From Pigmentibacter sp. JX0631 (GTDB taxonomy: Bacteria > Bdellovibrionota_B > Oligoflexia > Silvanigrellales > Silvanigrellaceae), in contig NZ_CP123622.1 in the NCBI RefSeq assembly GCF_029873255.1, positions 3,509,001 to 3,573,000 of the forward strand: a stretch of DNA of 64,000 bases, given 5' to 3'. Made by a program: the position numbers and the translations under genes. The notes under the pieces were generated by a model that did not search any database, was not told the origin of the DNA, and saw only the letters and a program-made list of their open reading frames with translations. Shown one piece after another: positions 27,668 through 64,000 of this stretch (the stretch's first letter is position 1; each line of letters starts with the position of its first letter).

Positions 27668-28774
27668 ATGTGCTTTTTGCAATTTATAGTAAGAAAAATG
27701 AAAGTAAAATGGACAATTTTGGTTCTTTTTACCGTATCTTTTTCTGCATTTGCAAATGAAGAAGTTTATGAATACACAGTGCAACCTAATGATAATCTTT
27801 CAACTGTATTGCAAAAACTTTCACTAAAACCAATTTATGGAAAAAATGGATCTTTAGCAGAAGTACTTAAACTTAATCCAGATAAACAAGAGAGCAATGG
27901 TAATTGTATTTATGTTGGTGAGGTGATTATCTTACCAAAAAGCATGCTAACAAAGCAAAATCAATCTTCTGAAATAAAAACAGAAGTTGCTAAAAAGAAT
28001 GAAATTAAAAAACCCAATAATAATAACAATGTAGTAATCTCTCAACAGCCTAAAGAACCAAAAATACCTCTCCAAAAAAGCGAAAAAATTGTTACTCAAC
28101 AGCCTAAAGAACCAAAAATACCTCTCCAAAAAAGCGAGAAAATTGTTTCTCAACAGCCTAAAGAACCAAAAATACCTCTCCCAAAAAGCGAGAAAATTGT
28201 TACTCAACAGCCTAAAGAACCAAAAATACCTCTCCAAATAAATGAAAAAATAGTTACACAACAACCTTTATCAGTGCCTGAAAAAAAATTAACCAGTACT
28301 GAAATTAAAAAAATTGAACCAGGGCAAACATTAGCAAGTGAAAATTTACATCTCGAAAAAAAGAGTCAAATTGTTTCACCTTCAGAAAATGAGAATAAAA
28401 AATCCTTCAACAAATTAAATGAAATATTTTCTTCAAATTCTAAATTAAGCTTCAGTAAGCAGATATCTAAAAATAATTTAGAATTTGATAATAAATCAAA
28501 AATTGAAAATCAGCTTTTTCCTTCCCAAAAAACTATTTTGCTTGCACTTCCTCTAAAGAAGCAGGATATAAATAGAGAAGATACTTTAAGCAGTTCGAAT
28601 TCCAAAAATTCTTCAACAACAAATTTACTTTCTCGAAAAGAAGTTTTTCTTTCTGAAGAAAATAGTTGCGATATATTTCCTAGTTGCAAATTTTGGTTAT
28701 GGGATTTAAATAATAAATGTTGTCTTCCAAAAAAACCTTACTTTATGATAAGTAATGAAAATTCATTAAAATAA
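27668..28774 (+). CDS. LysM-like exported protein with 18-residue tandem repeats
   Basis: A 368-residue protein: signal peptide (hydrophobic stretch ending SFSAFA), then a LysM-like domain (YTVQPNDNLSTVLQKLS, PIYGKNGSLAEVLKLNP, IYVGEVIILP). This variant contains the inserted PIYGKNGSL segment shared with three other genes in the window. A Lys/Pro/Gln-rich linker with four 18-residue repeats (consensus QQPKEPKIPLQKSEKIVT) follows, then a Ser/Asn/Lys-rich region and a Cys-containing C-terminal patch (CDIFPSCKFWLWDL, KCCLPKK). LysM domains bind N-acetylglucosamine polymers, so peptidoglycan attachment is likely, with the basic Pro-rich part as a periplasm-spanning stalk. The start is the ATG at 27668 because GAGGG lies 6 bases upstream; the in-frame ATG at 27698 has no ribosome site. 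Confidence 0.75.
   Translation: MCFLQFIVRKMKVKWTILVLFTVSFSAFANEEVYEYTVQPNDNLSTVLQKLSLKPIYGKNGSLAEVLKLNPDKQESNGNCIYVGEVIILPKSMLTKQNQSSEIKTEVAKKNEIKKPNNNNNVVISQQPKEPKIPLQKSEKIVTQQPKEPKIPLQKSEKIVSQQPKEPKIPLPKSEKIVTQQPKEPKIPLQINEKIVTQQPLSVPEKKLTSTEIKKIEPGQTLASENLHLEKKSQIVSPSENENKKSFNKLNEIFSSNSKLSFSKQISKNNLEFDNKSKIENQLFPSQKTILLALPLKKQDINREDTLSSSNSKNSSTTNLLSRKEVFLSEENSCDIFPSCKFWLWDLNNKCCLPKKPYFMISNENSLK
28043..28258 (+). repeat. Tandem repeat, 4 units of 54 bp
   Basis: Units begin at 28043, 28097, 28151 and 28205, each starting CAACAGCCTAAAGAACC. They encode the 18-residue QQPKEPKIPLQKSEKIVT motif. The first three units are almost identical in DNA, and the fourth diverges in its second half. Near-identity implies recent expansion and probable copy-number variation. 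Confidence 0.95.
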
Positions 28775-38455: not shown

Positions 38456-39562
38456 ATGCTAGATTTTTGCAAACAAAAGATTCCGCTTGAATCTTTTCTT
38501 TATCTAAACAAAAGGTACATTAAAGTGAAATTACAAAACATAAATCTTGAAAACAACTTAAAAACTTTCACAAATTTTGCTGAAAACCATAGTAATGAAA
38601 TTCCATATTCATTAACCCTCGATTTTAAAAAACATAAAGGTCATATTGTTTTTTCAGGTTTGGTACATGGAAACGAAACAGGTTCCTTACCTGCAATTAT
38701 AAGAATCATTCAGGATCTCTTGTCTAAAAAAATTTCTTATGGAGGAAAAATTTCTTTCTTTTTAGGAAACATACCTGCAGCCCAGCAAAATGTGCGTTTT
38801 ATTGAAATGGATTTGAATAGAAGCTTTGGAGAAAGTGCAGCAACAAATACCACTATTGAAGCAAAAAGAGCGAGAGAACTCACCCCTTTATTGCAACAAG
38901 CAGATGTTTATTATGATTTTCATCAAACAATTATGCCTTGTTTACGCCCATTTTATATTTTCGAAATGGATTTCCAAAGTTACTATTGGGCTAGATCTAC
39001 TGGGATAGCTAATACATACGTCACTAGAAAGAAAGGTGCAGCATTTTCAAATTTAGGGATGTGTACAGATGAATATGTTCGTTCTCTTCAAAAAGTAGGA
39101 ATTACTATTGAACTTGGCGAAAAAGGATTTCAGAAAGATGCTGAACTTTATGCTTACTTAATAATGAAAAGAGCTATAAAAAATATGGATTTAGTATATT
39201 TACATAACTGTTCCATTAAAAAATTAGCTCATAAAAATGAAGATTTTGAATTTATGCAAATAAAGTATAAAGAAAAATTTGATCATCCTAATAAACGGCT
39301 TCATCAAGGATTTAGTAACTTTAAGTTTATAGATAAAAATGATTCTATTGGCTTCGATGGTAATAATAAACCTCTAATAGCCCCGCTCAGTGGAAATCTA
39401 TTATTTCCTAAATATCCACCGCGTGATGAAAATAATCAAGCAAAATCACCATTGCCTGGAGAACTTTATGTGATTGCTCAAAAGATGAATTTTCATCCTT
39501 TAAAATGGCTTTCTGCTTACAAATCAAGAGAAAATCCAAGTCGTACACCAAACTCTAAGTAA
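38456..39562 (+). CDS. AstE/aspartoacylase-family zinc hydrolase
   Basis: A 368-residue M14-like deacylase. Zinc and catalytic motifs are IVFSGLVHGNETGSLP (HGNE), VRFIEMDLNRSFGE and VYYDFHQTIMPC, plus TIELGEKGF, which carries the catalytic Glu. The family hydrolyses N-acyl amino acids (succinylglutamate, N-acetylaspartate) or related amides. No arginine-catabolism ast genes are nearby, so the substrate is open. The ATG lacks a clear ribosome site. The 3' end overlaps the convergent barrel gene by 46 bases. Confidence 0.8.
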   Translation: MLDFCKQKIPLESFLYLNKRYIKVKLQNINLENNLKTFTNFAENHSNEIPYSLTLDFKKHKGHIVFSGLVHGNETGSLPAIIRIIQDLLSKKISYGGKISFFLGNIPAAQQNVRFIEMDLNRSFGESAATNTTIEAKRARELTPLLQQADVYYDFHQTIMPCLRPFYIFEMDFQSYYWARSTGIANTYVTRKKGAAFSNLGMCTDEYVRSLQKVGITIELGEKGFQKDAELYAYLIMKRAIKNMDLVYLHNCSIKKLAHKNEDFEFMQIKYKEKFDHPNKRLHQGFSNFKFIDKNDSIGFDGNNKPLIAPLSGNLLFPKYPPRDENNQAKSPLPGELYVIAQKMNFHPLKWLSAYKSRENPSRTPNSK

Positions 39563-40527
39563 TTTAGATTTATTGGAGAAGTTTTTAGATAAAAAGAATT
39601 ATAGTAAAGGTTTGTACTAATTGACCAATCTGATTTTTTAAAAATAAATTCTGGACCAAATTCATAGCCAAAACCATTTACAGTTCCATAATTAGGAACT
39701 TGGACAGGAATAATACCATTACAGACTCCATATACATTAAACTCTAAATGGTCAGTATAAAAAAGATGAAATCCAATTGTAGCATTTATTTTTGGTAATA
39801 AAATTGTTTCAATAACAGTGGTATTTGAATTTAAAGCTCTAAATGCAATTAATCCTCCGTATTGCAATTCAGGTTTTAAATATATTTTTTCAACAATATC
39901 GTATTTCATCCCAAAAACTGCATTAACTATTCTATTTAATGAATTATAAACATTAATTCCAGCTGTTGAAGATGAAACTTGTAATACTGAGTAATTTACT
40001 TTTTGGAAAGTTTTTAAGTCTGGACTCCAATTTTCTGTTAAACCTATTTCTTGCAATGTAACAGCTTTAAACAGAATTGTCTGTGAAATATTATAGTTCT
40101 TATCTGTTCCTGAAATTTGATAGTAATGAATATTTCCATTTAATTCATAGGAAAAAAAACTTTGTCTTATTTCTTTAGTCGTTCTATTATCAATCGACAA
40201 AGTTTCTTTATTGGCTTTTTCTTTTTCCATTATAATTTTCAAATCACTTTCTTCTGAGTTGATTAAAAATTCACTTTCCTGTGACTTTAATTCAGTACTT
40301 GGCGAAGTATTTTCCTGCGACTTTAATTCAGTATTTGGATTGTTATTATCTGGTTTAATTACTTCAATATCATTAAATTTAGGATCAATAGGATTTACTA
40401 TTGTACTTGAATTTTCTAAATTAGAAGCATCATTTTGTGGATAACAAGGTTGCATAATTAAAAATAATATCACAAGAAAATTATACTTAGAGAAAATAAA
40501 TTGTATCAGAATACGTATACAATTCAT
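39517..40527 (-). CDS. Exported outer-membrane beta-barrel protein (LysM-barrel family, no LysM domain)
   Basis: 336 residues with a signal peptide (MNCIRILIQFIFSKYNFLVILFLIMQPCYP), a ~90-residue Asn/Ser/Glu-rich linker with a short ELKSQE repeat, and a C-terminal barrel of about 215 residues. The barrel resembles that of the 48399-49484 protein: QEIGLTENWSPDLKTFQKVNY against VELGLIQHWTSDFKSFLGINY, and a common ending (YYNSFYLK..NLNYLEFGVRL against YYNHYSTY..FDYTEVGISI). Its ATG overlaps the stop of the LysM-barrel gene upstream (ATGA), so the two are made together. Function unknown. Confidence 0.65.
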   Translation of the reverse strand: MNCIRILIQFIFSKYNFLVILFLIMQPCYPQNDASNLENSSTIVNPIDPKFNDIEVIKPDNNNPNTELKSQENTSPSTELKSQESEFLINSEESDLKIIMEKEKANKETLSIDNRTTKEIRQSFFSYELNGNIHYYQISGTDKNYNISQTILFKAVTLQEIGLTENWSPDLKTFQKVNYSVLQVSSSTAGINVYNSLNRIVNAVFGMKYDIVEKIYLKPELQYGGLIAFRALNSNTTVIETILLPKINATIGFHLFYTDHLEFNVYGVCNGIIPVQVPNYGTVNGFGYEFGPEFIFKKSDWSISTNLYYNSFYLKTSPINLNYLEFGVRLGFSLDL

Positions 40528-42059
40528 TGATTTTCCCCTAATGGAAATGTTACTTCAGCTATCAAACCAAAATTTGCTTCATTAGAATTAACATCAGAAG
40601 TTTTTATATTTTTATTTATGTAAAATAGTTTTGTAGTAAAATCAAAATTTTCGAAAGCTTTAAGAATGGATAAATTAATTTCATAGCCACTTCCTAGGCC
40701 ATTATTATTAACAAAACTTAAGGAAGAAATATAGCCAATTTCAGAAAATATATCTACTAATTTTGTTTTATAAAAATGCAGACCCAAATACAGCATATTA
40801 TTAAAAACATAAATACTTTGTAAATTTGAATTATTACTGTATGGTTTATATATTACATCTTTTCCAAAATTTAACTTTTCATGAATGTGCACATTTTTAT
40901 GTAATTGATAATTTAATCCTAAATTTAATCCAAATAGTAACACAGGATTTCCTGAAATATTATAATAACTACTGTTTAAAAAATCTAGATAAGAAAATTC
41001 TAACGATGAATAAGTCCCAAACTGTTCATTCCAATTTTTTAAGTAACCTAAACCAATAATTGGACTTAATGAAGTATAAAGAACATTGTCAGTATTATTG
41101 GATGTATTATATTCGTGATATGTATAATATGCAGTTCCTACATTTAATTTAATATTACTTTCATGATAGGCTAATAAAAAAGAAGGAATTTCTATAATAT
41201 TAGAAGTTCCTAATTCCTTTTCATCATTAATAGCTTTTACTTGATAGAAGTAAGTTCTGTTTCCTTGAATATTCATATCTGAAAAGTTAGTATCAACACT
41301 ATTAAGTAAAATAGACTTAAATTCATCTTCAATTTTAGATTTTCTAAGTAGAATATATTTAGTACTACTGTTTTCATCTATAGATTCCCATTCAACATGA
41401 ATTGTTTTATCTTTTAACATACCCTTCAAGCTTGTATAAAAAATTGGTTTATAAATTATTTTTAACTCATTTGAATTTAAAATAAGACCATTTCCATCTT
41501 TAACCATTACAAGATATTTATATTCTTTATCTAAAATTAAATCTTTATCTTTAAAATCTTTAACAGTAATATTATCTTCTATTGTTTTAAATTCATTTTC
41601 ATCAGATAATGCTCTTTTTACTTCATATTTATATTCTGAATTATCAGGAAAAATATCCCATTTTAAATGAACAGTATTTTTTTCTAACATTCCGCTTAGT
41701 ATTAAAACTGGTTCTTTTTTTTCAACTTCTTTATCTTCTCGTATAATTTCACTAGCAATTACTTTATTTCCTTTTCTAAGTTTGAAATAAGGTATTTTTA
41801 TTTTTTCTCTAGGATATATCAAATTTCCTTTTGATTTCTTTTTCTTTGGATTTAAATCTAATGTGCGTTTTAAAGATCCTTTTTTTCCAAAAATTGGATT
41901 TAATTTATATTTCTTTAATATTTTATATAAAGTATCATTCTTTTTTACCGTGTAAATTACAAAATTTTGCTTCTTTGCGTAAGCTTCATTTCTCCAAGAA
42001 AAATGAGTTACGGTTAAAATGATCAAAAATTTAAGAAATAAATTTTTTAATTTGAGCAA
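40524..42059 (-). CDS. LysM-like / FN3 / outer-membrane barrel protein
   Basis: 511 residues in four parts: signal peptide (ending EAYA); LysM-like domain at ~34-90 (YTVKKNDTLYKILKKYKL, PIFGKKGSLKRTLDLNP, IYPREKIKIP) with the same insertion as in the other three genes; two FN3-like modules at ~115-295 (NTVHLKWDIFPDNSEYKYEV and KTIHVEWESIDENSSTKYIL); and a C-terminal barrel (~215 residues) rich in aromatic strands. The layout suggests an outer-membrane protein whose N-terminus grips peptidoglycan. The start is TTG with AAGGG 8 bases upstream; there is no ATG in a suitable place. It is coupled to the downstream barrel gene. Confidence 0.7.
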   Translation of the reverse strand: MLKLKNLFLKFLIILTVTHFSWRNEAYAKKQNFVIYTVKKNDTLYKILKKYKLNPIFGKKGSLKRTLDLNPKKKKSKGNLIYPREKIKIPYFKLRKGNKVIASEIIREDKEVEKKEPVLILSGMLEKNTVHLKWDIFPDNSEYKYEVKRALSDENEFKTIEDNITVKDFKDKDLILDKEYKYLVMVKDGNGLILNSNELKIIYKPIFYTSLKGMLKDKTIHVEWESIDENSSTKYILLRKSKIEDEFKSILLNSVDTNFSDMNIQGNRTYFYQVKAINDEKELGTSNIIEIPSFLLAYHESNIKLNVGTAYYTYHEYNTSNNTDNVLYTSLSPIIGLGYLKNWNEQFGTYSSLEFSYLDFLNSSYYNISGNPVLLFGLNLGLNYQLHKNVHIHEKLNFGKDVIYKPYSNNSNLQSIYVFNNMLYLGLHFYKTKLVDIFSEIGYISSLSFVNNNGLGSGYEINLSILKAFENFDFTTKLFYINKNIKTSDVNSNEANFGLIAEVTFPLGENQ

Positions 42060-48398: not shown

Positions 48399-49484
48399 TT
48401 GAAAGTGATCACTTTTAATATAAAATCTAAATATTTGTTTTTCGTTACCTGTTCACTTTTATTGAACTTTCATCTTTCTTTTTCTATGGAAAACTCAAAT
48501 AAATTAAATAATAATACAGAAATTGAATTTAATAAAATTGATCACCAATCACATGAAGTTAATTTTGATGAATTAAAAAAAAGTAAAGTAATACATTTAA
48601 ATGAACCAAAAAATATTTCATGTGAATTATATAAAACAAATGAAGGAGAAACTCTTACTAGTATTTTAAGAAAAAAAAAGTACTTTCCAATTTATGGAGA
48701 AAATGGATTTTTAAAAAAAACACTAGAAGTAAATCCTAATATTTCAAATTACAACTTTATACTTCCAGAAGGTGAAAGTATTTGTTTACTTGAAAACAAA
48801 TCAGAAAAAGAGAATAGCGAGCGAAATATAGATGCAAATTTTCACTCATTATTCTTAGAAGGAGGGATAAAATACTTAAGATTGATTGAAATTGATTCTA
48901 CAACAGGTACTGAAGCAAAGCTTTTATCAAGGGCAATACCTTTTGTTGAATTAGGTTTAATTCAACATTGGACAAGTGACTTTAAAAGTTTCTTAGGAAT
49001 TAATTATGCTGTTTCCCAAATTATACAATCCGATTCTAGTGTTGTAATTGGAGACAGTATAATTAGATTAACAAATTATTTTTTAGGTCTAAATTATAAA
49101 TTTAATTATTTATTTTATTCTGAAGTTACAATATCATATGGTGATACATTAGTTGTAAGAGCTATTAGCGATAATACATTAAAAATTGAAAAAATGTCGA
49201 ATATAAAAGCAAAATTTTTAGGAGGTATTAATTTTTTAGCAATTGACAATATTTTATTTAATAGTGAAATTGGTTTTTTATTAAATACAAAATATAACAA
49301 TGAAATATACAATTCAGATTATGGAAAAGGTTACGAAGGAGCTTTAGTAATATTATTAATTAGCAAAGACTGGGAATTAAGAGGAAGATTATATTATAAC
49401 CATTATTCAACATACGTGCAACCCGTTACTTTTGATTATACAGAGGTTGGTATTTCAATTCGCCTTACAGCAGATCTGGAGTAA
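48399..49484 (+). CDS. LysM-like exported outer-membrane barrel protein
   Basis: 361 residues: signal peptide (KYLFFVTCSLLLNFHLSFS), a short acidic linker, a LysM-like domain with the shared insertion (CELYKTNEGETLTSILRKKK, PIYGENGFLKKTLEVNP), and a ~215-residue C-terminal barrel related to the one at 39517-40527. The start is uncertain. The frame begins with TTG at 48399, with a GTG two codons on; the first ATG is at codon 30, after the signal peptide, so a non-ATG start is needed. No good ribosome site is visible. It ends 2 bases from the convergent DsbA-like gene. Confidence 0.65.
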   Translation: MKVITFNIKSKYLFFVTCSLLLNFHLSFSMENSNKLNNNTEIEFNKIDHQSHEVNFDELKKSKVIHLNEPKNISCELYKTNEGETLTSILRKKKYFPIYGENGFLKKTLEVNPNISNYNFILPEGESICLLENKSEKENSERNIDANFHSLFLEGGIKYLRLIEIDSTTGTEAKLLSRAIPFVELGLIQHWTSDFKSFLGINYAVSQIIQSDSSVVIGDSIIRLTNYFLGLNYKFNYLFYSEVTISYGDTLVVRAISDNTLKIEKMSNIKAKFLGGINFLAIDNILFNSEIGFLLNTKYNNEIYNSDYGKGYEGALVILLISKDWELRGRLYYNHYSTYVQPVTFDYTEVGISIRLTADLE

Positions 49485-50584: not shown

Positions 50585-50631
50585 CAAAGTATCCCCCTAA
50601 AATTGAATTCTAGGAATTATAATAGCATACT

Positions 50632-51470
50632 TTAATAGATACTAATTCCATATCCTTTTCCAAACCCAGAGCTGCTAGAACAACTAGCGGCTGAAGGAAT
50701 TGAACCATTGGCAGCGATAGGACACGAATAAACAACCCCAACTGAATTTACAATATAGACATCACTACTATTAGGTGTACTTGTTATTGCCCATATTGTT
50801 CCAAAACCATTTGCAGTATTCGTACAAGTTGAACTAGCAGGAAATACTCCGCTAGTGAATGGACAGACGTACACGTTTCCATTTGAATACCCACCTACAT
50901 ATGCGTAACTACCATTATAACCCATACCCCAAGCACCTGTAAAAGTACTAGATTGTGAACAACCAGAAAAGTTTGGAACGACTCCACCGCTTAATGGACA
51001 AGATGTTACTTTATTAACAGAAGAATAATTTGCAAGATAAAAATAATTATTTTTTACAAAACCGGCATAAGCCTTATTAAATCCAGTTCCAACTGAGCAA
51101 CCACTAGAATTTGGAATTGAACCGTTACCTTGTACAGGACATGAATATATTGTACCTGCACTATACATGACTACATACACATAATTATTAGCATAATAAA
51201 TTGTTGGATAGGCAGGAAATGAATCACTGAATCCTGTACTTTTTAAACACCCTGAAGCAGTTGCTGGGATAGTATTATTTGTTATGGGACATGCATAAAC
51301 AAAACCAGAACTATTTACCACGTACAAAAATGAACTTGAAGCAGATACGCTGTACAAACTTCCATACCCCGTTGATGCAGCACAACTTGCAGCATTAGGC
51401 ACCGCTCCACCAGACAAAGTACAAGTATAAACAGAACCATTATTATCACCGATATATGTTACTGTCGCTG
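50632..51470 (-). repeat. Six-bladed Cys-paired C-terminal propeller of the giant lipoprotein
   Basis: Six repeats of about 45-50 residues, each with a YV-type strand, (T/S/A/V)C(P/T), a Gly-Ser turn, IPxSxxC and GFG. Every blade has two cysteines 12-14 residues apart. The count suits a closed six-bladed beta-propeller at the tip of the fibre. Confidence 0.65.
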
Positions 51471-54400
51471 GAACTGGAAAATTAACTGTGTATGCACTGC
51501 GAACAATTTCCATATTACTAAAATTTAATGCAGCATTTGTCCATGCTGCAGCAAATGCTAAGTATCCATTCAATGTAAAATTTTGTTGAGTTCCATTCCT
51601 TGGAAAATTTCCTAATATAAAATTACCGCCTCCTAGAGCTGAAGCATTTGTTGAAGGTAATGTTTGAGTTCCATTTGTATCTAAAATATTTGAAGAACCG
51701 CTTAAAGATCTACCGACAAAATTATATCCAACATTACTGTTCGTAATTGTTTGATTTGCTAAATCATCTCGAAAATTATTTCCACTTCCATTATTAAAAC
51801 CAAATCCATTTGTTGAACTCGCTGATGAATTATTTGAATATCCAAAAATTCCATTAAAGTTAGTTGAACTAGGATTTTGTGCATAAGCTACTATTGTTGA
51901 AGGTTGTGTTGAATTAAATATTGAAGAATTAGAAATTGCTATTCCATAATTAGGAGCTGGCGCCAAAGCAGAGCTACCTAAAACACCATTTTGATCCCAA
52001 GCAAATGCAGCTGTAGATAAAGTAGAATTATGTTGATCACAATATAAGTCAAACACAGTTCTATTACTTATGCTTCCATATCCTGCATTTTGTTGTTTTT
52101 GCATTGCATATAACACATCTGGAATAGAAATATTATTTGTAATTAAATTATCAAGGAAATTTTTAATTTGCCCTTGCCCAGCAGCTGTTAATGAATATCC
52201 AGAGATACTGCTAACTCTATTTGTATAATCTGTTATTATTCCATTTGTATTTATTCCATTTGTTGTTGAATTTCCATTAATACAAACTTTACTACTACCT
52301 AAAAAGTTTGAACATGTTACACATGAAGTCAACACTTTACACAGATCGGCTGTTTGAGTAGTATAAGTTGAAGAAGTAGCACCACTTATTAAATTATTAT
52401 TTGCATACCAACTATAAGTACAATTTGAAGAATCGCTCCATGTACCTAAAGTAGTCGATAAAACATTTCCTGTTGAGGTAATAATATTTGAATTAGAACT
52501 AAATCCTGCACCTGACAAAACAGGCACTACAGTATTAACAGGTGAGCTATAAGTTACGGTTGCAATATTAGAGTTTGCAGTAGTATTAAAAGCATTCGTG
52601 GCTGTAACAACATAATAATAAACTGTTCCATTAACTGGATTTGTTAAATCTGAACAGAACGTATTTGTCAAATTAGAATTAGCGCAAGTTCCGGAAGTTA
52701 AAGTTACATATCCACTGCCTGATGCTGTAGAGCGTTTTACCGTATAAGTTATTGTTGCATTTCCTGGACTTGCTGTCCAATTTACAGAAATAGATCCAGC
52801 CCCAGAAATTGTAGCTGTAACACCTGTTGGAGGAGTTGTTTGAGTAACAGTGCTAACAGAGCTTGATTGAACAGTCGTTCCCGCTGAATTAATTGCTTGT
52901 ACTGCATAATAATAAATATTTCCGGGAGAACCTCCTGTATCAGAACAAGTTAATGAACTAATACCTGCAGGAGTACAAGTTCCTGTTGCAAAAGTTGAAA
53001 AGCTTCCAGCTAAATTAGTTGACGATCGTAATACGATATAACTTATTGCAGAATTTCCTGGACTTGCACTCCAAGAAATATTTATCGTCGTAGTATTAGT
53101 AGCTGTTGCTGAAATTGTTGTTGGTGTATTCGTCGGTAATGTAACAGTTACATTACTTGAAGTTGTAGTTGTTCCTCCTGCATTTGTGGCTGAAATATTG
53201 TAAAAATAAATATTTCCTGCAGTGGCAGTAGAATCTAAACAATTTGCAGTAGATGCTGTGACTGTTACGTTGCATACTATTTGTGAAAAACCAGATCCAC
53301 TATTTAACGATCGAAACACATTATATGTTGTGGCAGCTGATCCGGGACTCACAGTCCAAGATAGGGTTACAGAAGACGAAGAAGTTGCCGTCGCACTTAG
53401 ACCAGTTGGAGTAGTTGTTAAAGTTGTTGCTGTTGTTTGGACAGAATTTGAAGTTGTTCCCGCACTATTCGTTGCTGTAACCACATAGTAATATTGTGTT
53501 CCTATCGTTAATCCAGAATCAGTACATGTAATACCTGATAAATTCCCAAAACATCCACTGCCACTAGGAATAGCAGTAAATGTTGTCCCATTTATGGAAC
53601 GCAAAACATTGTATGTAACAGAGGCACTGCCAGGACTTGCTGTCCAATTTAAAGCTATTGAAGTTGTACTTGCAGTAGTAGCAACAAGTGTTGTTGGCGC
53701 TGTTGTTGGTAATGTTACTGAAACTTCAATGGAATTAGCTGAAGTACTTCCTCCAGTTGATGCCGTGAGAACATAATAATATGTAACACCCGGAAGAACA
53801 CTCGCATCATTGCATGATACCACTGGTGAACTTAGCGCACTACTACAGGTTCCAGATGTAGGAGATATATAAGGCCCACCTGTTGTTGTCGATCTTTTAA
53901 TATTATAAATTACACTACTTCCAGGGCTTGCTACCCAGCCGATATTAACTAACACTGAACTTGCTGCAGTTGCAGTTATTGAAGTAGGAGCAGTTGTAGG
54001 AGTTGTTACGTTTATTTCAAATGAATTAATCGATGCTCCTGCTGCTGTATTTGCTTTAATTATATAAAAATATTTTATACCAGGTGTGACAGAAGTATCT
54101 TGACAAGTTAAAACTGTTATATTTCCTGTGCATGCTCCACTTGTTAAAGTTGTATATGGACCACCTGTTACTAATGAACGAAATATTGTATAAGTTATAT
54201 TTGTTGTACCAGGACTTACTGACCAAGATAAATTCACTTGAGAAGAACTGGCTGCCATAGCGGTAAATGTATTTGGGGGAGAAGTAAAACTAGTTGCAGA
54301 TATTTCACTCGAATTTACTGAAGTACCACCAGGATTTGTCGCTGTTAATACATAAAAATAAGTTGTTCCTGGTGCAACAGTACTATCAATACAAGTAACG

Positions 54401-57400
54401 GCGCTAATATTTTTACAACCAGTAACTGGTGAATAAGCTCCTCCAGAAGTAGATGATCGACTTAATGTATATGTTGTACCAGAAGAATTCCCAGTTACTG
54501 TTGACCAGTTCATTTGAATTTGAGTTGTATTAATAGGATTGGCAGTTAATGAAGTTGGTGGATTTGGTGGTGAAGTTACTGTAATTTCATTTGAAAATGC
54601 GGTTGTTCCTGCACTATTTGTTGCTGATATAACATAGTAATACGTCGAACCAGATGCAATACTTGAATCTGTACATATGTTAGTTGTTACTATAGCACCA
54701 CAAGTTCCACTAGAACCACTTAACGAAACATAACCACTACCACTAACATTAGAGCGAAAAATGTTATAATTTATTGCAGAGTTACCAGGACTAACAACCC
54801 AATATAAATTAGCACTTGTTGTTGTTAACGATGCTAAACTTAATCCACTGGGGGGATTTGTTGGTAAAGTTAATTGTTTTTCAGAGGTAGATAATATATT
54901 TCCTGACGAATTTTGTCCTTTAATTCGCATAAAATATGAATTTCCTGGCGACAAATTATTTAATGCTATTGAAGTTGTTGTTACAGGTCCTTGACTACCA
55001 GTGTATGTACCAGAAACAGCACCATATTGAAGAGTATAATTTTGTGCACCACTTGCTGACGACCAATTAATATTAGCGGATGTTGAATTCACTGGGCTCA
55101 AACTTGTAAAATCAAAAGGGGCAATTGACATTCCTGAAATTTCAGAACTTTGAAATGTTCCACCTACAGATAAGTTTGCAACTAAGGCAAAGTAATAGGT
55201 AACCCCGTTAGATAAGCCTGTAGCAGTACAACTAGTTCCAACTAAATTAGAGCATCCTGATGCTATTTGGCCGCCACTTATAGCATTTCCTGATGAAGTT
55301 GAAAAATAAATATTATATGTAGTTGCATTTACTACACTAGCCCAATTTAATGAAATTTGCGATGAAGCAATTCCTGAAATTGTCAAAGTATTACCTAATG
55401 GTGTACTGCTTACTTCTGAAGTTGAATTAGTTGCGCTTGAATTTACACCAGTGTTATTTGCAAAAACAGTAAAGTAATAAGTTGTTCCGTTTGTTAACCC
55501 TGTTGCAGTACACGTTAAAGTAACAATAGAAACACAACCTGTAACATTAGTACCTGAAGATGAACCACCTAAAGTGGTAGATGATTTCACAGTATAATTT
55601 GCCGCGCCAGAAGCAGAATTCCAATTTAAAGTAATTTGGCCAGATGAAGAAGAAATAGTTGTAATCGAAAAAGATCCAATAGGTGTTACAGTAACTTGAT
55701 TTGAATTAGCAGAAACTCCACCACTTGTATTTGCATTAACAACATAGTAATAAGTTGTGCCAAGAAAAACCGAATTATCTGATGCTGATGTTGAATTAAT
55801 ACCTGATTGGACGACTGAATATGAGGCTCCAGAAGTTTGGGAACGACTTAATGAATAAGTAATTAGTGCCGCAGTACCAGTACTTGCTGTCCATGTAAAA
55901 TTCACAAATGATCCGCCGGCAGTTGCAGATAAACCAGTAGGTGCCGTTGTTGGTGTTACTGTATTTATTTCTATAGAATTTCCTGTAGTACCATTTGAAT
56001 TCGTCGCTCTAACGATATAAAAATATGCAGTACCAGCCGCAACAGAACTATCAGTACAATTTAATGAACTAATAGCTACACAACCAACGACATTTGTATA
56101 TGGTCCACCTGTTGTTGAAGAACGTAAAACTGTATATGTATTAGGAAGAAGCCCAGGACTTGGAGCCCAAGTCATCACAATATTAGTTGAAGTTATAGTA
56201 GTAAATGAAAATCCTGTCGGAGGACTGGTCGGCATATTTACTGTTACTTCATTTGAAGCTATTGATGTTCCCCCTGAATTTATTGCTGTGACAATATAGT
56301 AGTATTTATATCCGGGTAAAGCTGTAGAATCTATGCAAGTTAAAACTGTTACGTTATTACAACTCCCTGAAGTTAACGGAGAGTAATTAGAACCACTAGT
56401 TACTGATCTGCTAACTTGATATGTTACATTTGCAGAACCCGTACTCGCGCCCCAAGCTAAATTTACATTTGTACTACTTGTTGCAGTAGCAGTTAAAGTC
56501 GATGGCGCATTTGTTATCGTAGTTGCTGAAACTTCACTCGATAATGGAGAACTACCCCCTCCATTTATTGCTGTTATTGTATAGAAATAAGTAACTCCTG
56601 CAGACAATCCTGAATCAGAACAAGAGCTAGTTGAGGTACTTAAATTTCCTGAACACCCTCCACTTGCTACGTTAACATACCCACTTCCAGATGTAGTTGA
56701 TCTACCAACAACATAACTGATAACAGAATTTCCTGGACTTAAATTCCATGAAAGATTTATAGTTGAAGACGATGCAGTTACTGCAACTACATTTGTTGGT
56801 GCAGTAGTAGGTACTGTTACTGTTACTTGATTTGAATTATTTGTTGTACCTGCAAGATTAGTTGCATTTACTATATAATAATAAACAAATCCTGGATTTA
56901 CTGAAGTATCAGTACAATTAGTTACACTAAGCGCACTATTTGAACAAGTGCCTGCAGTTACTAACGAATAAGATGATCCAGAAATAACAGATCTTTTAAC
57001 AGTATATGAAACAGATGATCCACTACTCGGACTAGCAGTCCATGACAAATTAATTGCCGAGGAAGAACTGGCTGAACCAATTAAATTAGTGGGAGCCATT
57101 GTTGGCATTGTTACTGAAGCCTCAACTGAATTAGCTGAACTCCCTCCCGCTGTATTTGCAATTACGACATAGTAATACACAGTTCCGGGTGACAGATTTT
57201 GATCTGTACACGTTGTACTTGCCACAAGCGCAGAACATGTTCCAGAAATTATAGAAGTATAACCACTACCACTTACAGTTGATCTTTTTACTGTATAAGT
57301 AACGTTATTTGTTGAACCCACACTAGCAGTCCAAGATAAGGTAACAGAAGTTGACCCTGTAGCTGTAGCTACCAAATTTGTAGGTGTGTTAGCAGCGGTA

Positions 57401-60400
57401 GTTGCTGTTACTTCTGTTGAATAAGGAGAATTCCCCCCTGCTGTTGTTGCAAGAAGAACATAAAAATACTGAGTTCCTGGACTAACTGTCGTATCAGAAC
57501 AAGTTAGGCTTGAAATTGAAGAACAACTTGTTACTAAAGTATAAGGTCCACCACTTACTCCAGAACGCATTAATGAATAAGTTATATTTGCAGTCCCTGG
57601 ACTAGCTGTCCAAGAGAAATTTATTACAGATCCACTCATAACATTAGCAACTAAATTTGTAGGAGAAAGCGTGGGAGTTGTTGCAGTAACCGCTGTTGAA
57701 TTTGCACTCGATCCTGCAGCAGTTATTGAGTTAACTATATAGTAATATGTTGTTCCAGGCAGTACATTTTGATCAAAGCAATTTGTTGAACTTACCGCAG
57801 TTTGACAACTTCCTGCTAAAATAGCTGTATAGGTAGATCCATTTAAAGAATGTTTAGCTAAATAAGTAACGGCATTACTTCCAGTAGTTCCTGTCCAATT
57901 AAGAGAAATAGAAGTTGTATTCAGAGCAGCAGCTGTTACATTAATAGGAATATTTGCAAAAGTTGTAACTGAAGTTTCATTTGAATTTCCTGATGTTCCA
58001 CCAGAAGTTACTGACTGCGCAACATAATAATATTTTGTTGCAGTTTGTGCAGTCGTATCTTGACAATTTAAAGTAGGATAATTTATATTGCCAGCACATC
58101 CGCCAGTAGTTAAAGCTGTATAAGGCCCTCCACTTTGGGTTGAACGTAATATTATAAAACTAAGTGAAGCACCCCCTGAATTACTAGACCAAGATAAATT
58201 AACTGCATTTGCATTTGCTGCTGTAGAAATTAAATTTGTAGGAGCTGAAGCTTGGGAAGTTAACGATAGTTCTGTTGAATTTCCTGTATTACCGGCAGCA
58301 TTACTAGCTGAAACAACGTAAAAATAATTACTTCCAGAAATAATTGATGTATCAGTGCAACTTGCAGAAGTTATATTTGTACAACCTACAACATTTGTAT
58401 AAGGACCTCCACTTAAATTTGCCCTTTTCAATGTATAACTAATTGGATCGGTACCTAAACTTGGATTCCAAAATATAAACACAGCCGAACTACTAGCTGC
58501 ATTGCCTGCTAAACCTGTAGGTATTGTTGTTGGAGTTACTGCATTTGCTTCTGAAGAATTAGAAGAAGTTCCACCAGTATTGCTTGCTTTGACAATATAA
58601 AAATATTTGTTTCCTGCTGAAACGCTCGTATCAGTGCAACTAGCTGTAGAACCACTTAACGTAACAGGACATGAAATTGTAGTGTAAGGTCCTCCTGAAG
58701 TAGAAGAAGTTTGAACAATATAATTAATGCTTGAATTGCCTGGACTGATATTCCAAGATAAATTAATAGTGGAACTACTTGCCGCAGTAGCTGTTACATT
58801 AGTAGGAGGTGTTGAAATTAGTGTAGTTGAAAATTCTGAATTCGAATTTACATTTCCTTGTCCATTATTTGCAACTATTTTAAAATAATAAGTAGTTCCT
58901 GCATTCAAATTAGATATTGTTGCTGGTGATGTGGTATAAGGACCGCTTGAAAAAGTGTATGTGCCAGAAACTATCCCATAAATAATATTGTAAGAACTTG
59001 CACCTACTGCAGAACCCCAACTTATTTGTGCACTACTTGCCGATAACCCTGTTACAGCTGTGAAATCAAATGCGCCTATAGGCGTTGCAAAAATTTCTCC
59101 ACTATTAAAACTTCCACCCGTTGATAAATTTGCAACCATTGCAAAATAGTATTTTGTTCCGTTTGTTAAACCTGTCGCTGTGCAAGAATTTAAAGTTATT
59201 GAACTACAACCAGTAGCTAAAACTCCACCAGATATGGCATTACCTGAAATTTGTGAAACATAAATATTGTAATTATTAGCATTTGGTATTGCATTCCAAT
59301 TAATTACTACTTGACCTGTTCCAGCAGTAATTGTTGTAAATGGAGTATTAAAAGGAGTACTTGTAGCCTCACTAGAAGAATTACTCGCAGTAGATCCTAC
59401 TCCCACATTGTTTGCAAATACAGTATAGTAATATGTCGTACCATTTGTAAGCCCAGAATTAATTACACAAGTTGTCGAAGCTATTGCTGAGCAATTGGTA
59501 ATAATTGAGCCAGAACTTGAGCCACCCATTGTAGTAGATTGTTTGACAGTATAATTTGTCGCACCCAAAGCTGTGTTCCAAGTTAAAGTAACTTGATTAG
59601 GAGCTGTGATATTTCCAATAATATTTAAACTGCTAATTGGTGTCACAGTAATTTGATTTGAATTTCCCGAATTTCCACCACTTGTCATTGCCTGAACTAC
59701 ATAATAATATGTTGTCCCATTACTTACATTAAAATCACTATAACTTGTCGAAGAAATATTAGTATCAATTACACTATATGGACCACCAGAAGATAATGAT
59801 CTTTTAATTATATAGCTGATAGAACCTGCAGTACCACTACTCGCTGTCCATGTTAAATTAACAACACCCCCTCCATTTGCTGTTGCAATTAAACTTGTAG
59901 GGGCATTTGCTATAGTTGTTGCAACAACTTCATTAGAATAAGCAGACACACCTCCAGCTGTAGTTGCAGTTAATACATAATAATAACTAGTTCCTGCTAC
60001 TACTGTTGTATCTGTGCATGAAGTTAAAATAAGAGATCCACTACATCCACCAGAAAGTATCGTTGTATAGGGTCCGCCACTCGTTGTTGCACGAGCAACA
60101 TCATATGAAATACTTGCTGTTCCCGGACTTGTTGTCCAAGATAAAGAAACGGAAGAAGAACTTGTCGAATTAACATTATTTAAAACAGGAGGAGTTGTAA
60201 AAGTCGTAGCTTGGGCTTGTGTTGAATAAACAGATTCACCACCAGCAGTTATTGAAGTAACAACATAATAATAAGTAGTACCTGCTATTAAATTTGTATC
60301 TGAACAAGAATTAATTGTTACATTATTACAAGAACTAACTATAGAAAAAGGACCTGTTCCAGATGTTGAACGATATAAATTATACAATATACTTGTTGTA

Positions 60401-63400
60401 CCAGGACTTGTTGTCCAAGTAAGATTTATAGAAGAAGTGTCTTGCGAAGTAGCTGTTAAGTTAGTAGGAGCTGATGTAGGTAAAACAACATTAACTTCAG
60501 CCGAATTAGTTGAAACTCCACCAGCTGTTGTTGCTTTTACTACATAATAATAAGAATTTCCCGGTGATGCGCTAGTATCAGTACATGTAAAGGTATTGAC
60601 TAAGCCACTTTGACAAGTACCAGATGATATTGCCACATAATTAATTCCTCCACCAGTTAGACTACGCAGGACTGTATAAGTAATTGTTGCGTTACCAGAA
60701 CTAGCTGACCAAGTAACATTTACTGCGCTTGTTCCCAAAGGACTTGCAGTTACATTAGCTGGTGGATTTGTAATGGTTGTTGCATTTGCTTCTGAGGAGT
60801 AAACAGATACTCCACCTGTTGTTGATGCAGTAACAACATAAAAATATTTTGTTCCTGGAAGAACATCATTATCTACACAAGTAACGATAGGAGATAGTAT
60901 ATTTGTTCCACAAGTTCCATTTACTATTTGAGAGTAACCTGATCCGCTTGTCGTAGAACGAAACAGTGTGTAACTTATTTGTGCGCTTCCTGGACTCGCA
61001 GTCCAAGATAAATTGATAGAATTTGTTCCAGCTGAAGCGGCTGTTAACGTTGCTGGAGCATTTGTTGGAGTAGTTGCCGAAGCAAAACCTGAATTTCCTG
61101 ACGTACCTCCTGCAGTTGTAGCTGTTATAATATAGTAATAAGTTGTTCCTAGAGTAACTGAACTATCTATACATGATGTAACAGATAAACTTCCTGAGCA
61201 TCCACCAGAAGCTATAGCAACATAACCACTAGAACTACTTGTCGAACGTAGCACTATATAGGTTATGGGAACCGTTCCTGGACTTGCAGACCAATTAATA
61301 TTGATACTCGTACTTGATAACGTGGTAGCTATCAAATCAACCGGAGGGGTTGTAGTTGTCGTGGCATTAGCTTCAGCTGAAAAAGAAGATATGCCCCCAT
61401 CTGTTGTTGCCGTAACAACATAGTAATATTTCTTCCCCAGATCGACGGCTGTATCTACACAGCTTGTAACTCCAACAGAAATAACTTCACAACTTGCTGA
61501 AGGGACTAAAATATAACCAAATCCTGAAGTTTCAGAACGATAGACTTGATATGTAATTAAAGAAGAACTCCCTGGACTTGCAGTCCAAGATAAATTAACA
61601 GACGAATTTCCAACTGCGGTAGCAGATAAACCAGTTGGTGCATTTGTTGCAGTCACAGCATTAGCTTCAATTGAATTGCTTGTAGTCCCTCCCGCAGTAG
61701 TAGCTAAAACGACATAATAATAACGCAATCCTGGTGATGCACTTAAATCAGTACAAGTTGTTACTGTAAGGCTTGAATTACTGCACGTTCCAGATGCAAT
61801 TGCTGTATAAGGTCCACCGCTATTTGTTGCTCTTTTTACTTGATAAGTAATAGGAACACTCCCAGGACTGGTTTGCCAATTTAAAGAAATTGAAGAGGAT
61901 GAATTTACAGTCGCTATAATATCACTAGGAGGTGTAGTCAGAGTTGCTGTTGTAGATTCACTTGAATTAGGAGAAGAGCCGCCACTGGTTGTTGCTAGTA
62001 CAACATAGTAATAATTTGTCCCAGGAGAAAGTCCATTATCACTGCAACTTGTTCCGTTAATTCCAATACAATTTGGAACTGGTAAATAATTACTACCCGA
62101 TGTTGTAGATTTAAAAACTGAATAAGTTATCTGCCCAGCAGTACCAGAGCTTGGAGTCCAAGAGAGTTGTAATGAATTAGCAGTAATTGCAGAAAATACT
62201 AACCCAGTTGGAGAATTGGGTTGTGTAGTTAATGCCAATTCTGCACTATTTGCTGTCGTCCCAACAGAATTTGTTGCACTAGCAACATAAAAATATTGAG
62301 TACCTGCAGATACCGAACTATCCGTGCAATTTACAACACTAATATTTATACAGCCAACTACATTCGAGTAAGGACCTCCTGATGCAGAAGATCTTTTTAA
62401 TGTATAAGAAATAGGAACATTTCCAGGACTTTGGAGCCATTGAAGAACTGCTGAACTTGTCGTTACAAGTGGACTATATAAATTGGTTGGAGGAGTTGTT
62501 GGAGTTACAACAGAAGCTTGAAGAGAATTAGGGGAACTTCCAGCCGAATTACTAGCAGATACAACATAATAATATTGCATTCCTGGTAAAACGGAATTAT
62601 CGGCATAAGTTAAAGTAGCAGAGTTTAAATTACTTGCGATAAGATCATATGGCCCGCCAGAAACTATTGAACGACTGACTTGATAGACGATTGTCCCCAA
62701 ACCAACAGCAGCGTTCCAACTTACATTTGTTAAATTAGAACTAGCAGCAACCGCTGTTACTGCTGTTGGAGCAAATGGAGGCGCAAGTGGAGTTGCTGTA
62801 CTGATGTTACTTATGACACTACCAGCATTATTGGTAGCAGTAACTTGAAATTGATAGGTTGTTCCATTGTTTAAATTAGGAATAATTGTATAAGTAGATT
62901 GCAAATTGGTTATGGTATCCGTAAATGGACCTGGGAATATGCCATAATTAACTGAATAAGTTTTAGCAATATCAACCGCATTCCAAATTAAATAAACGGT
63001 TTTGTCGCCAGATATCGCATTCACAGATTGAAATGGACCAACAGTAGCTGCAATTTCTGTTTTAGAATCCGTATTCCCATAGGCATTTTGCGCAGTTACT
63101 TTAAAATAATATTGTATACCGTTTTGCAATGAAGGAATGTTGCAAACAATCTGTGCGTTACATGAAGTTACTGAATTTGTATAATTTTTTGATGAAGTTC
63201 CGTACCAAACAGTGTAACTTTTAGCTTTTTGTGCTTGCCCCCAAAGTAACGAAACCTGACTATCACTTGCTAAAACATCTGTGATTTCAAAAATTTTAGG
63301 AGTAGATAAAAATGGGCTATTACCGTCGTCAACATGAGAATTTGATCCTCCTAATGGATTAAAATTGCAGCCATATGACGCGAATAAAAAAAACAAGAAA

Positions 63401-63441
63401 ATTAAAATTTTTTTAGTAAATAACGCCCGTAACAACTCCAT
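50632..63441 (-). CDS. Giant multi-FN3 surface lipoprotein with C-terminal propeller
   Basis: 4269 residues. In order: lipoprotein signal with lipobox SYGC (Cys25, +2 Asn); about 38 FN3-like modules of 85-98 residues from ~45 to ~3630, most with the pattern APTNLTATASSSSxINLSW, YTVxRSxxSGGPYT, TYYYVVTATxxGGTSxNS; one Ig-like module with GTWSDSSNCTYSWYANNNLI; a ~250-residue region with WDQNG, NGIFGYSNN and NFILGNFPRNG, resembling a LamG/concanavalin-like sandwich; and six ~47-residue blades, each with two cysteines (for example GSVYTCTLSGGAVPNAASC), ending GKGYGISIY. Most FN3 modules also hold a Cys pair before the F strand. This is a long, disulfide-stabilised surface fibre with a binding head, probably an adhesin. 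It has no enzymatic motif. Composition is Ser/Thr/Asn-rich. The ribosome site is close to the ATG (AGGATATG). Confidence 0.85.
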   Translation of the reverse strand: MELLRALFTKKILIFLFFLFASYGCNFNPLGGSNSHVDDGNSPFLSTPKIFEITDVLASDSQVSLLWGQAQKAKSYTVWYGTSSKNYTNSVTSCNAQIVCNIPSLQNGIQYYFKVTAQNAYGNTDSKTEIAATVGPFQSVNAISGDKTVYLIWNAVDIAKTYSVNYGIFPGPFTDTITNLQSTYTIIPNLNNGTTYQFQVTATNNAGSVISNISTATPLAPPFAPTAVTAVAASSNLTNVSWNAAVGLGTIVYQVSRSIVSGGPYDLIASNLNSATLTYADNSVLPGMQYYYVVSASNSAGSSPNSLQASVVTPTTPPTNLYSPLVTTSSAVLQWLQSPGNVPISYTLKRSSASGGPYSNVVGCINISVVNCTDSSVSAGTQYFYVASATNSVGTTANSAELALTTQPNSPTGLVFSAITANSLQLSWTPSSGTAGQITYSVFKSTTSGSNYLPVPNCIGINGTSCSDNGLSPGTNYYYVVLATTSGGSSPNSSESTTATLTTPPSDIIATVNSSSSISLNWQTSPGSVPITYQVKRATNSGGPYTAIASGTCSNSSLTVTTCTDLSASPGLRYYYVVLATTAGGTTSNSIEANAVTATNAPTGLSATAVGNSSVNLSWTASPGSSSLITYQVYRSETSGFGYILVPSASCEVISVGVTSCVDTAVDLGKKYYYVVTATTDGGISSFSAEANATTTTTPPVDLIATTLSSTSININWSASPGTVPITYIVLRSTSSSSGYVAIASGGCSGSLSVTSCIDSSVTLGTTYYYIITATTAGGTSGNSGFASATTPTNAPATLTAASAGTNSINLSWTASPGSAQISYTLFRSTTSGSGYSQIVNGTCGTNILSPIVTCVDNDVLPGTKYFYVVTASTTGGVSVYSSEANATTITNPPANVTASPLGTSAVNVTWSASSGNATITYTVLRSLTGGGINYVAISSGTCQSGLVNTFTCTDTSASPGNSYYYVVKATTAGGVSTNSAEVNVVLPTSAPTNLTATSQDTSSINLTWTTSPGTTSILYNLYRSTSGTGPFSIVSSCNNVTINSCSDTNLIAGTTYYYVVTSITAGGESVYSTQAQATTFTTPPVLNNVNSTSSSSVSLSWTTSPGTASISYDVARATTSGGPYTTILSGGCSGSLILTSCTDTTVVAGTSYYYVLTATTAGGVSAYSNEVVATTIANAPTSLIATANGGGVVNLTWTASSGTAGSISYIIKRSLSSGGPYSVIDTNISSTSYSDFNVSNGTTYYYVVQAMTSGGNSGNSNQITVTPISSLNIIGNITAPNQVTLTWNTALGATNYTVKQSTTMGGSSSGSIITNCSAIASTTCVINSGLTNGTTYYYTVFANNVGVGSTASNSSSEATSTPFNTPFTTITAGTGQVVINWNAIPNANNYNIYVSQISGNAISGGVLATGCSSITLNSCTATGLTNGTKYYFAMVANLSTGGSFNSGEIFATPIGAFDFTAVTGLSASSAQISWGSAVGASSYNIIYGIVSGTYTFSSGPYTTSPATISNLNAGTTYYFKIVANNGQGNVNSNSEFSTTLISTPPTNVTATAASSSTINLSWNISPGNSSINYIVQTSSTSGGPYTTISCPVTLSGSTASCTDTSVSAGNKYFYIVKASNTGGTSSNSSEANAVTPTTIPTGLAGNAASSSAVFIFWNPSLGTDPISYTLKRANLSGGPYTNVVGCTNITSASCTDTSIISGSNYFYVVSASNAAGNTGNSTELSLTSQASAPTNLISTAANANAVNLSWSSNSGGASLSFIILRSTQSGGPYTALTTGGCAGNINYPTLNCQDTTAQTATKYYYVAQSVTSGGTSGNSNETSVTTFANIPINVTAAALNTTSISLNWTGTTGSNAVTYLAKHSLNGSTYTAILAGSCQTAVSSTNCFDQNVLPGTTYYYIVNSITAAGSSANSTAVTATTPTLSPTNLVANVMSGSVINFSWTASPGTANITYSLMRSGVSGGPYTLVTSCSSISSLTCSDTTVSPGTQYFYVLLATTAGGNSPYSTEVTATTAANTPTNLVATATGSTSVTLSWTASVGSTNNVTYTVKRSTVSGSGYTSIISGTCSALVASTTCTDQNLSPGTVYYYVVIANTAGGSSANSVEASVTMPTMAPTNLIGSASSSSAINLSWTASPSSGSSVSYTVKRSVISGSSYSLVTAGTCSNSALSVTNCTDTSVNPGFVYYYIVNATNLAGTTNNSNQVTVTVPTTAPTNVVAVTASSSTINLSWNLSPGNSVISYVVGRSTTSGSGYVNVASGGCSGNLSTSTSSCSDSGLSAGVTYFYTITAINGGGSSPLSSEVSATTITNAPSTLTATATSSTNVNLAWGASTGSANVTYQVSRSVTSGSNYSPLTSGSCNNVTVLTCIDSTALPGYKYYYIVTAINSGGTSIASNEVTVNMPTSPPTGFSFTTITSTNIVMTWAPSPGLLPNTYTVLRSSTTGGPYTNVVGCVAISSLNCTDSSVAAGTAYFYIVRATNSNGTTGNSIEINTVTPTTAPTGLSATAGGSFVNFTWTASTGTAALITYSLSRSQTSGASYSVVQSGINSTSASDNSVFLGTTYYYVVNANTSGGVSANSNQVTVTPIGSFSITTISSSSGQITLNWNSASGAANYTVKSSTTLGGSSSGTNVTGCVSIVTLTCTATGLTNGTTYYFTVFANNTGVNSSATNSTSEVSSTPLGNTLTISGIASSQISLNWASVVNATTYNIYFSTSSGNAISGGQIASGCSNLVGTSCTATGLSNGVTYYFALVANLSVGGTFQSSEISGMSIAPFDFTSLSPVNSTSANINWSSASGAQNYTLQYGAVSGTYTGSQGPVTTTSIALNNLSPGNSYFMRIKGQNSSGNILSTSEKQLTLPTNPPSGLSLASLTTTSANLYWVVSPGNSAINYNIFRSNVSGSGYVSLSGSSGTCGAIVTTNICTDSSIASGSTYYYVISATNSAGTTAFSNEITVTSPPNPPTSLTANPINTTQIQMNWSTVTGNSSGTTYTLSRSSTSGGAYSPVTGCKNISAVTCIDSTVAPGTTYFYVLTATNPGGTSVNSSEISATSFTSPPNTFTAMAASSSQVNLSWSVSPGTTNITYTIFRSLVTGGPYTTLTSGACTGNITVLTCQDTSVTPGIKYFYIIKANTAAGASINSFEINVTTPTTAPTSITATAASSVLVNIGWVASPGSSVIYNIKRSTTTGGPYISPTSGTCSSALSSPVVSCNDASVLPGVTYYYVLTASTGGSTSANSIEVSVTLPTTAPTTLVATTASTTSIALNWTASPGSASVTYNVLRSINGTTFTAIPSGSGCFGNLSGITCTDSGLTIGTQYYYVVTATNSAGTTSNSVQTTATTLTTTPTGLSATATSSSSVTLSWTVSPGSAATTYNVFRSLNSGSGFSQIVCNVTVTASTANCLDSTATAGNIYFYNISATNAGGTTTTSSNVTVTLPTNTPTTISATATNTTTINISWSASPGNSAISYIVLRSSTNLAGSFSTFATGTCTPAGISSLTCSDTGGSPGNIYYYAVQAINSAGTTVQSSSVSTVTQTTPPTGVTATISGAGSISVNWTASPGNATITYTVKRSTASGSGYVTLTSGTCANSNLTNTFCSDLTNPVNGTVYYYVVTATNAFNTTANSNIATVTYSSPVNTVVPVLSGAGFSSNSNIITSTGNVLSTTLGTWSDSSNCTYSWYANNNLISGATSSTYTTQTADLCKVLTSCVTCSNFLGSSKVCINGNSTTNGINTNGIITDYTNRVSSISGYSLTAAGQGQIKNFLDNLITNNISIPDVLYAMQKQQNAGYGSISNRTVFDLYCDQHNSTLSTAAFAWDQNGVLGSSALAPAPNYGIAISNSSIFNSTQPSTIVAYAQNPSSTNFNGIFGYSNNSSASSTNGFGFNNGSGNNFRDDLANQTITNSNVGYNFVGRSLSGSSNILDTNGTQTLPSTNASALGGGNFILGNFPRNGTQQNFTLNGYLAFAAAWTNAALNFSNMEIVRSAYTVNFPVPATVTYIGDNNGSVYTCTLSGGAVPNAASCAASTGYGSLYSVSASSSFLYVVNSSGFVYACPITNNTIPATASGCLKSTGFSDSFPAYPTIYYANNYVYVVMYSAGTIYSCPVQGNGSIPNSSGCSVGTGFNKAYAGFVKNNYFYLANYSSVNKVTSCPLSGGVVPNFSGCSQSSTFTGAWGMGYNGSYAYVGGYSNGNVYVCPFTSGVFPASSTCTNTANGFGTIWAITSTPNSSDVYIVNSVGVVYSCPIAANGSIPSAASCSSSSGFGKGYGISIY
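52550..63300 (-). repeat. Array of ~38 FN3-like modules
   Basis: Counted by the recurring (T/N)xPPTxLxATAxSSxxxxLSW start and TxYYYVVxAT-xxGGxSxNSxE end of each module. Modules are diverged in DNA sequence, not recent copies. A non-standard three-module cassette (lacking the RSxxSGGPY segment) occurs as modules 14-16 at ~58820-59640 and as modules 28-30 at ~54868-55679. Confidence 0.8.
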
Positions 63442-63640: not shown

Positions 63641-64000
63641 TTGAGAATAAAAATTTTAAAAGAAAATTTAATTAAAAAAATTTTAATGCTGTTTGTAATT
63701 TTATTTTGTCAAATGAGTGAAAATACTTTTCCTAGAGAATTAAAAAATATCCAATACAAAGTGCAAAAAAAAGATACTCTCCTAGGAATTCTAAAAAAAT
63801 ATTCATTAAAACCAATTTATGGGAAAAACGGTTCCTTAGTTGAAATATTAAAACTAAATCCCCATAAAATTAATACAAAAGGAAATCTTATTTATCCGGG
63901 AGAAATATTAACGCTGCCATTAAAAAAAGAAATTGAAAATAATTCTTTAAATAATAACAATAATAATAGTAATTCAACTATAAATTCAGAAGCAAAAAAA
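63641..64000 (+). CDS. LysM-like exported protein (3' partial, runs off the window)
   Basis: A frame starting at TTG 63641 (AGGT 8 bases upstream) and open to the right edge encodes 120 residues. It has a basic/hydrophobic signal peptide (KENLIKKILMLFVILFCQM), then a LysM-like domain (YKVQKKDTLLGILKKYSL, PIYGKNGSLVEILKLNP, IYPGEILTLP) and an Asn-rich linker. The domain is the closest match to that of the 27668 gene. What follows, a repeat linker or a barrel, lies outside the window. It is divergent from the giant lipoprotein across 199 bases. Confidence 0.75.
   Translation, partial: MRIKILKENLIKKILMLFVILFCQMSENTFPRELKNIQYKVQKKDTLLGILKKYSLKPIYGKNGSLVEILKLNPHKINTKGNLIYPGEILTLPLKKEIENNSLNNNNNNSNSTINSEAKK

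Follow-up and report, generated by a model that had tools for sequence, protein, structure and literature searches.

The long form of the LysM domain (Pfam PF01476), typified by Escherichia coli Kbp (YgaU), combines the common LysM fold with a GD(T) loop, an LN(P) motif, a terminal strand and an 'IYGK' segment, and in Kbp it is preceded by a BON domain. Some LysM domains have other roles, Kbp being a potassium-binding protein. In the inverse autotransporters of the intimin/invasin type (type Ve; intimin, YeeJ) a leader and a periplasmic LysM are combined with an outer-membrane barrel, which is followed by a C-terminal passenger. This LysM-barrel order is known from both intimin and YeeJ; in YeeJ, a barrel adhesin, it is the LysM that attaches to peptidoglycan, since its deletion abolishes the binding, while that of intimin also dimerizes (PMC5595812).

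Here we describe a genuine LysM variant with a long loop, new as a variant, from Pigmentibacter sp. JX0631. It shares the fold, the GD(T) loop, LN(P), the terminal strand and 'IYGK' with the Kbp/YgaU form and differs from it in having about five extra residues before YG, two after NP and a fixed P..G..G; moreover, the variant proteins show no Pfam match to BON. Most of them share the leader, LysM and barrel with the intimin type. However, here the barrel ends the protein instead of preceding a passenger, fn3 spacers can sit between the LysM and the barrel, unlike in intimin/invasin, and genes 2, 3 and 4 show no Pfam match to the PF11924 translocator barrel of the type Ve systems.

The window, i.e., the whole stretch of 64,000 nucleotides that was analysed, extends from base 3509001 to base 3573000 of a 3.65 Mb genome that consists of one contig. 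The original prediction held that four of its genes code for this variant, and a six-frame scan finds exactly four matches to the motif, all in frame in these genes; the positions it had cited for the motif are gene ends. The relevant features are:

27668..28774, + strand: gene 1 (368 aa), with a leader, variant LysM, linker and C-terminal four-cysteine motif
27698, + strand: ATG, the likely start of gene 1, beginning a signal-peptide-like leader
27761..27943, + strand: variant LysM of gene 1, with PIYGKNGSL at 27830-27856
39517..40527, - strand: barrel paralogue without LysM, homologous to the gene 3 barrel (E 1e-23)
40524..42059, - strand: gene 2 (511 aa), with a leader, variant LysM, two fn3 and a C-terminal barrel
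41784..41966, - strand: variant LysM of gene 2, modelled with AlphaFold2, with PIFGKKGSL (first base 41897)
48399..49484, + strand: gene 3 (361 aa), with a leader, variant LysM and C-terminal predicted ten-strand barrel (about 48840-49475)
48615..48797, + strand: variant LysM of gene 3, found by the family profile, with PIYGENGFL at 48687
50632..63441, - strand: giant protein (4269 aa) between genes 3 and 4, a candidate partner
63641..64000, + strand: 5' part of gene 4 (1022 aa in total), which runs on to 66709 as counted in the window's numbering
63743..63925, + strand: first variant LysM of gene 4, with PIYGKNGSL at 63812

A stricter form of the motif pattern likewise matches four times in the window as against none in 100 mononucleotide shuffles. 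Across the 3.65 Mb genome, a degenerate DNA pattern finds five sites, all within 36 kb, and none in the reversed control; the fifth lies just beyond the window end and belongs, like the fourth, to gene 4. A profile built from these five domains recovers two further, more divergent domains in one gene near genome position 19,500, bringing the total to seven domains in five genes. By comparison, Pfam LysM detects only three ordinary domains in this genome, two in one long-form LysM protein and one in a transglycosylase-like protein (MltD-type, as named by eye), and therefore the variant is its commonest LysM. Searches of phage, plasmid and viral collections returned no matches, and a phage or plasmid origin was rejected on these grounds.

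All four proteins start with an N-terminal hydrophobic leader, judged by eye, in keeping with their anticipated export. Gene 1 continues after its LysM into a disordered-looking linker of Pro/Lys/Gln-rich repeats, and its orthologues keep the LysM and the C-terminal Cys motif with a diverged linker. The motif itself, CDIFPSCKFWLWDLNNKCC (28660-28771, +), is retained in orthologues despite this divergence. The start of the barrel paralogue shares 4 bases with the end of gene 2, and the two likely form one operon. Gene 4 has a leader, two variant LysM, six fn3 and a C-terminal barrel. As it continues past the window end, three of the four proteins, and not two as initially counted, end in a barrel.

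The loop of the variant is of invariant length. Across 45 distinct domains from ten genomes, the spacing between the acid of GD(T) and the asparagine of LN(P) is 29 residues in all 45, as compared to 21 in a short LysM and 24 in a Kbp-type long LysM, counted on the sequences. Thus, the 'about eight residues' said to be added between the helices are right relative to a short LysM. In the numbering of the gene 2 domain, L17, P24, G27, G30 and N39 are kept in 42-45 of the 45, with the loop residues P, G and G present in 44, 42 and 43 of them, respectively. The motif positions therefore rank among the most conserved of the domain, as the argument from conservation to a specific function had assumed, although part of this conservation reflects paralogy. 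Elsewhere in these domains, the GD(T) position is always an acid, the LN(P) asparagine and core leucine are near-invariant, and the second loop often lacks its PG. The variant is present in two or three copies in several genes.

The profile of the variant aligns end to end with ordinary LysM (hhalign E 3.4e-15). In this comparison its YGK coincides with that of the long form, five additional residues preceding the YGK and two more following NP; a HMMER alignment of the variant to solved Kbp agrees with this placement. In 28 relatives the Pfam LysM match spans, read by eye from a table, are at most 147 bases for ordinary domains and 162-165 for the variant with none between, so the insertion is real. 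At the same time, 'IYGK' is already present in an ordinary long-form LysM of the same genome (KKIYGKASNWKKIAELN), and the new motif aligned on the long-form YGK, so the motif is half old. On these alignments, what had been proposed as an inserted motif is a lengthened long-form loop with about five extra residues before 'IYGK'. Pfam LysM at E<=0.01 matches 11 of 22 variant domains. The gathering cut-off of PF01476 (20.9) is passed by the domains of genes 2 (27.2 bits) and 4 (23.3 bits), that of gene 1 (17.8 bits) falls below it, and that of gene 3 is without any Pfam match. Hence, the profile does not stay apart from known families but merges with PF01476, the outcome that had been named in advance as contrary to the original prediction.

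AlphaFold2, run with six relatives, models the gene 2 domain as strand-helix-helix-strand (E4-8, H15-21, H34-40, E57-61) with a pLDDT of 82.8, i.e., the beta-alpha-alpha-beta order of LysM, and the LysM in the gene 3 model is likewise strand-helix-helix-strand. Solved LysM domains head the Foldseek list: the closest solved fold is the intimin periplasmic LysM 2mpw (E 0.025, probability 0.99), with Ecp6 and further LysM domains next on the list. No match attains E 0.001, as is unsurprising for a domain of 68 residues. Given the end-to-end alignment with ordinary LysM, the LysM order of the model and the match to intimin, we conclude that it is a LysM variant; the status of a separate new domain family is rejected.

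The tight variant is present in seven of the eight genomes of the genus, the lone exception being 72% complete, and in all three genomes of a second genus of the same family. Other matches among the 58 genomes covered by the phylum search, which did not include Bdellovibrio and Halobacteriovorax, are few and weak, and a scan of named genomes with a narrow peptide pattern gives matches in three g4 genomes only. As judged from these sequences, the tight form is restricted to two genera of one Silvanigrellaceae-like family. Following the weakest matches, we found that five other families of the class have a looser form, GxG...SxxxLYGxxGW; as profiles, it and the tight form align (E 5e-13). Thus, the lineage first envisaged was too narrow: lineage specificity holds for the tight form, and confinement to this lineage is rejected for the wider one. 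In two of these five families, the looser LYGxxGW proteins L129, L142 and L130 show, by eye, barrel-like C-termini with a final aromatic residue.

By sequence comparison, genes 2, 3 and 4 end in homologous barrels, to which that of the 39517-40527 paralogue is also homologous; hence, the notion that the remainder of each protein differs fails for these three. The barrel family has exactly four copies genome-wide, all within about 27 kb, and save one weak match is confined to this genus among the relatives searched. The gene 3 model predicts a barrel of about 210 residues with ten strands of 9-19 residues (pLDDT 68, pTM 0.57). At E<=0.001 it has 48 solved matches, nearly all of them outer-membrane barrels, with low TM-scores to be read alongside the pLDDT of 68; this supports the outer-membrane type earlier assigned to these C-termini. 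The best barrel-sized matches are OmpT/Pla-type barrels and OpcA, which have the same strand number and fold class as the predicted barrel at about 10% identity, with NalP and EstA also among the matches. A sequence-profile search of the barrel against solved chains gave no match, and no solved relative was found by sequence. Between the LysM and the barrel, the number of fn3 domains varies from none (gene 3) through two (gene 2) to six (gene 4). In orthologue pairs no part is better conserved than the LysM, which the barrel at most equals: between gene 2 and its counterpart in G006, identity is 84% in the LysM, 32% in fn3 and 47% in the barrel.

Genes of type 3 and 4 flank a giant gene in all seven domain-carrying genomes of the genus. 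The giant of the window has a lipobox-like N-terminus (SYGC-NFNPLGG), 38 fn3 and Cys-rich propeller-like C-terminal repeats. The giants of these seven genomes share a lipobox-like start of the form C-[ND]-[FY]-N-P-L-G-G, and in the six genomes where they were read whole their lengths are 2,802-4,269 residues with 22-38 fn3 repeats; that of the seventh (G002) is seen in two pieces and also as a 4,269 open frame. The C-terminal part shows 27-35% identity in most pairs and a weak resemblance to lactonase-type propellers. Between species the repeat number and C-terminus vary and the gene order is fixed. In two of the three genomes of the second genus, the LysM gene is followed after about 60-100 bases, on the same strand, by a different giant. 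The latter is lipoprotein-like and has Ig-type (Big_9) repeats, to which the one giant that was read to its end adds repeats that are RCC1-like by eye. This arrangement, with a giant of about 2,400 residues, is located at L066:5834-6988 and in G010 (contig 1, bases 512379-519806), the length in G010 being taken from two overlapping stretches of one contig. Genes 1 and 2 do not adjoin such a giant.

We propose that the long-loop LysM domains probably function as periplasmic peptidoglycan anchors of small (10-strand) outer-membrane barrels, like the LysM of intimin; the fold and barrel are as predicted by the models, and we infer the export, topology, peptidoglycan binding and role of the loop. 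After export, the LysM, close to the N-terminus of the mature protein, would be periplasmic and would grip the glycan chains of peptidoglycan via the groove usual for LysM domains. For three of the window's four proteins, the C-terminal barrel of about ten strands would reside in the outer membrane, with the fn3 domains (0, 2 or 6) as a spacer between the two, such that the protein ties the outer membrane to the wall. The P-(I/V)-(Y/F)-G-x-x-G-x-L loop between the helices would be a fixed structural element with one of two roles, namely to shape or extend the face that binds the sugar, or to provide a surface for contacts. Such proteins would offer outer membrane-wall tethering without OmpA-like or Braun-type domains, and the sharply defined, searchable LysM subtype has a loop open to testing for glycan specificity.

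Counting against a wall anchor, the groove-side positions are only partly kept in the sequences. A rather unlikely alternative that would account for this makes the variant mainly a protein-contact module, with the loop as the docking site between barrel proteins or between these and the giant lipoprotein, and with peptidoglycan binding weakened or lost. The fixed loop length and near-invariant P and two G alongside varying groove-side positions, the two or three LysM copies in several genes, the constant neighbourhood with giant lipoprotein-like proteins and the dimerization of the intimin LysM (PMC5595812) all agree with it; however, the near-invariance of the GD(T) acid, LN(P) asparagine and core leucine is that expected of an intact LysM. 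It is unlikely that the loop has no special function, being merely structure inherited as an ancestral LysM-barrel gene duplicated locally. While the homologous barrels of genes 2, 3, 4 and 39517, all four genomic copies of which lie within about 27 kb, are as such duplication would leave them, in gene 1 and the g4 proteins this domain is joined to partners of a quite different kind, and the loop length persists, as do P, G and G, at about 30% overall identity. We consider it improbable that the LysM and fn3 form a passenger exported through the barrel to bind chitin or foreign glycans at the surface. The order of N-terminal domains before a barrel at the C-terminus is indeed that of classical autotransporters, the barrel matches include NalP and EstA, and one member of the family parasitizes the zooplankter Daphnia (PMC12321486); yet the barrel is small (about ten strands, 210 residues), matches no autotransporter Pfam family and has OmpT/Pla-type barrels and OpcA as its best matches of comparable size.

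The strongest hint to function in these sequences is that different repeats come with the same plan and the same neighbour, although gene order is not proof of interaction. We tentatively entertain, as a possibility short of likely, that giant surface lipoproteins with Ig-like repeats have the long-loop LysM proteins as their dedicated partners. As peptidoglycan-anchored barrels, the latter would help to position or brace a lipoprotein that measures roughly 2,400-4,300 residues and has a propeller-like tip. We found no description of such a two-part surface system of a LysM-barrel protein and a giant lipoprotein. The fusion of the variant mostly to outer-membrane barrels beside giant-protein genes suggests a way to pin surface machinery to the wall, and the conserved neighbourhood points to how Silvanigrellaceae may build very large surface proteins.

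The interval that separates gene 3 from the giant contains, at 49487-50587 (-), a gene for a membrane-anchored protein, thioredoxin-like by eye but without CxxC, which has no significant match in Pfam; most relatives have no gene at this place. At 45575-46558 (+) is a fliG with the Pfam FliG N, M and C domains, whose neighbours are not flagellar-looking.
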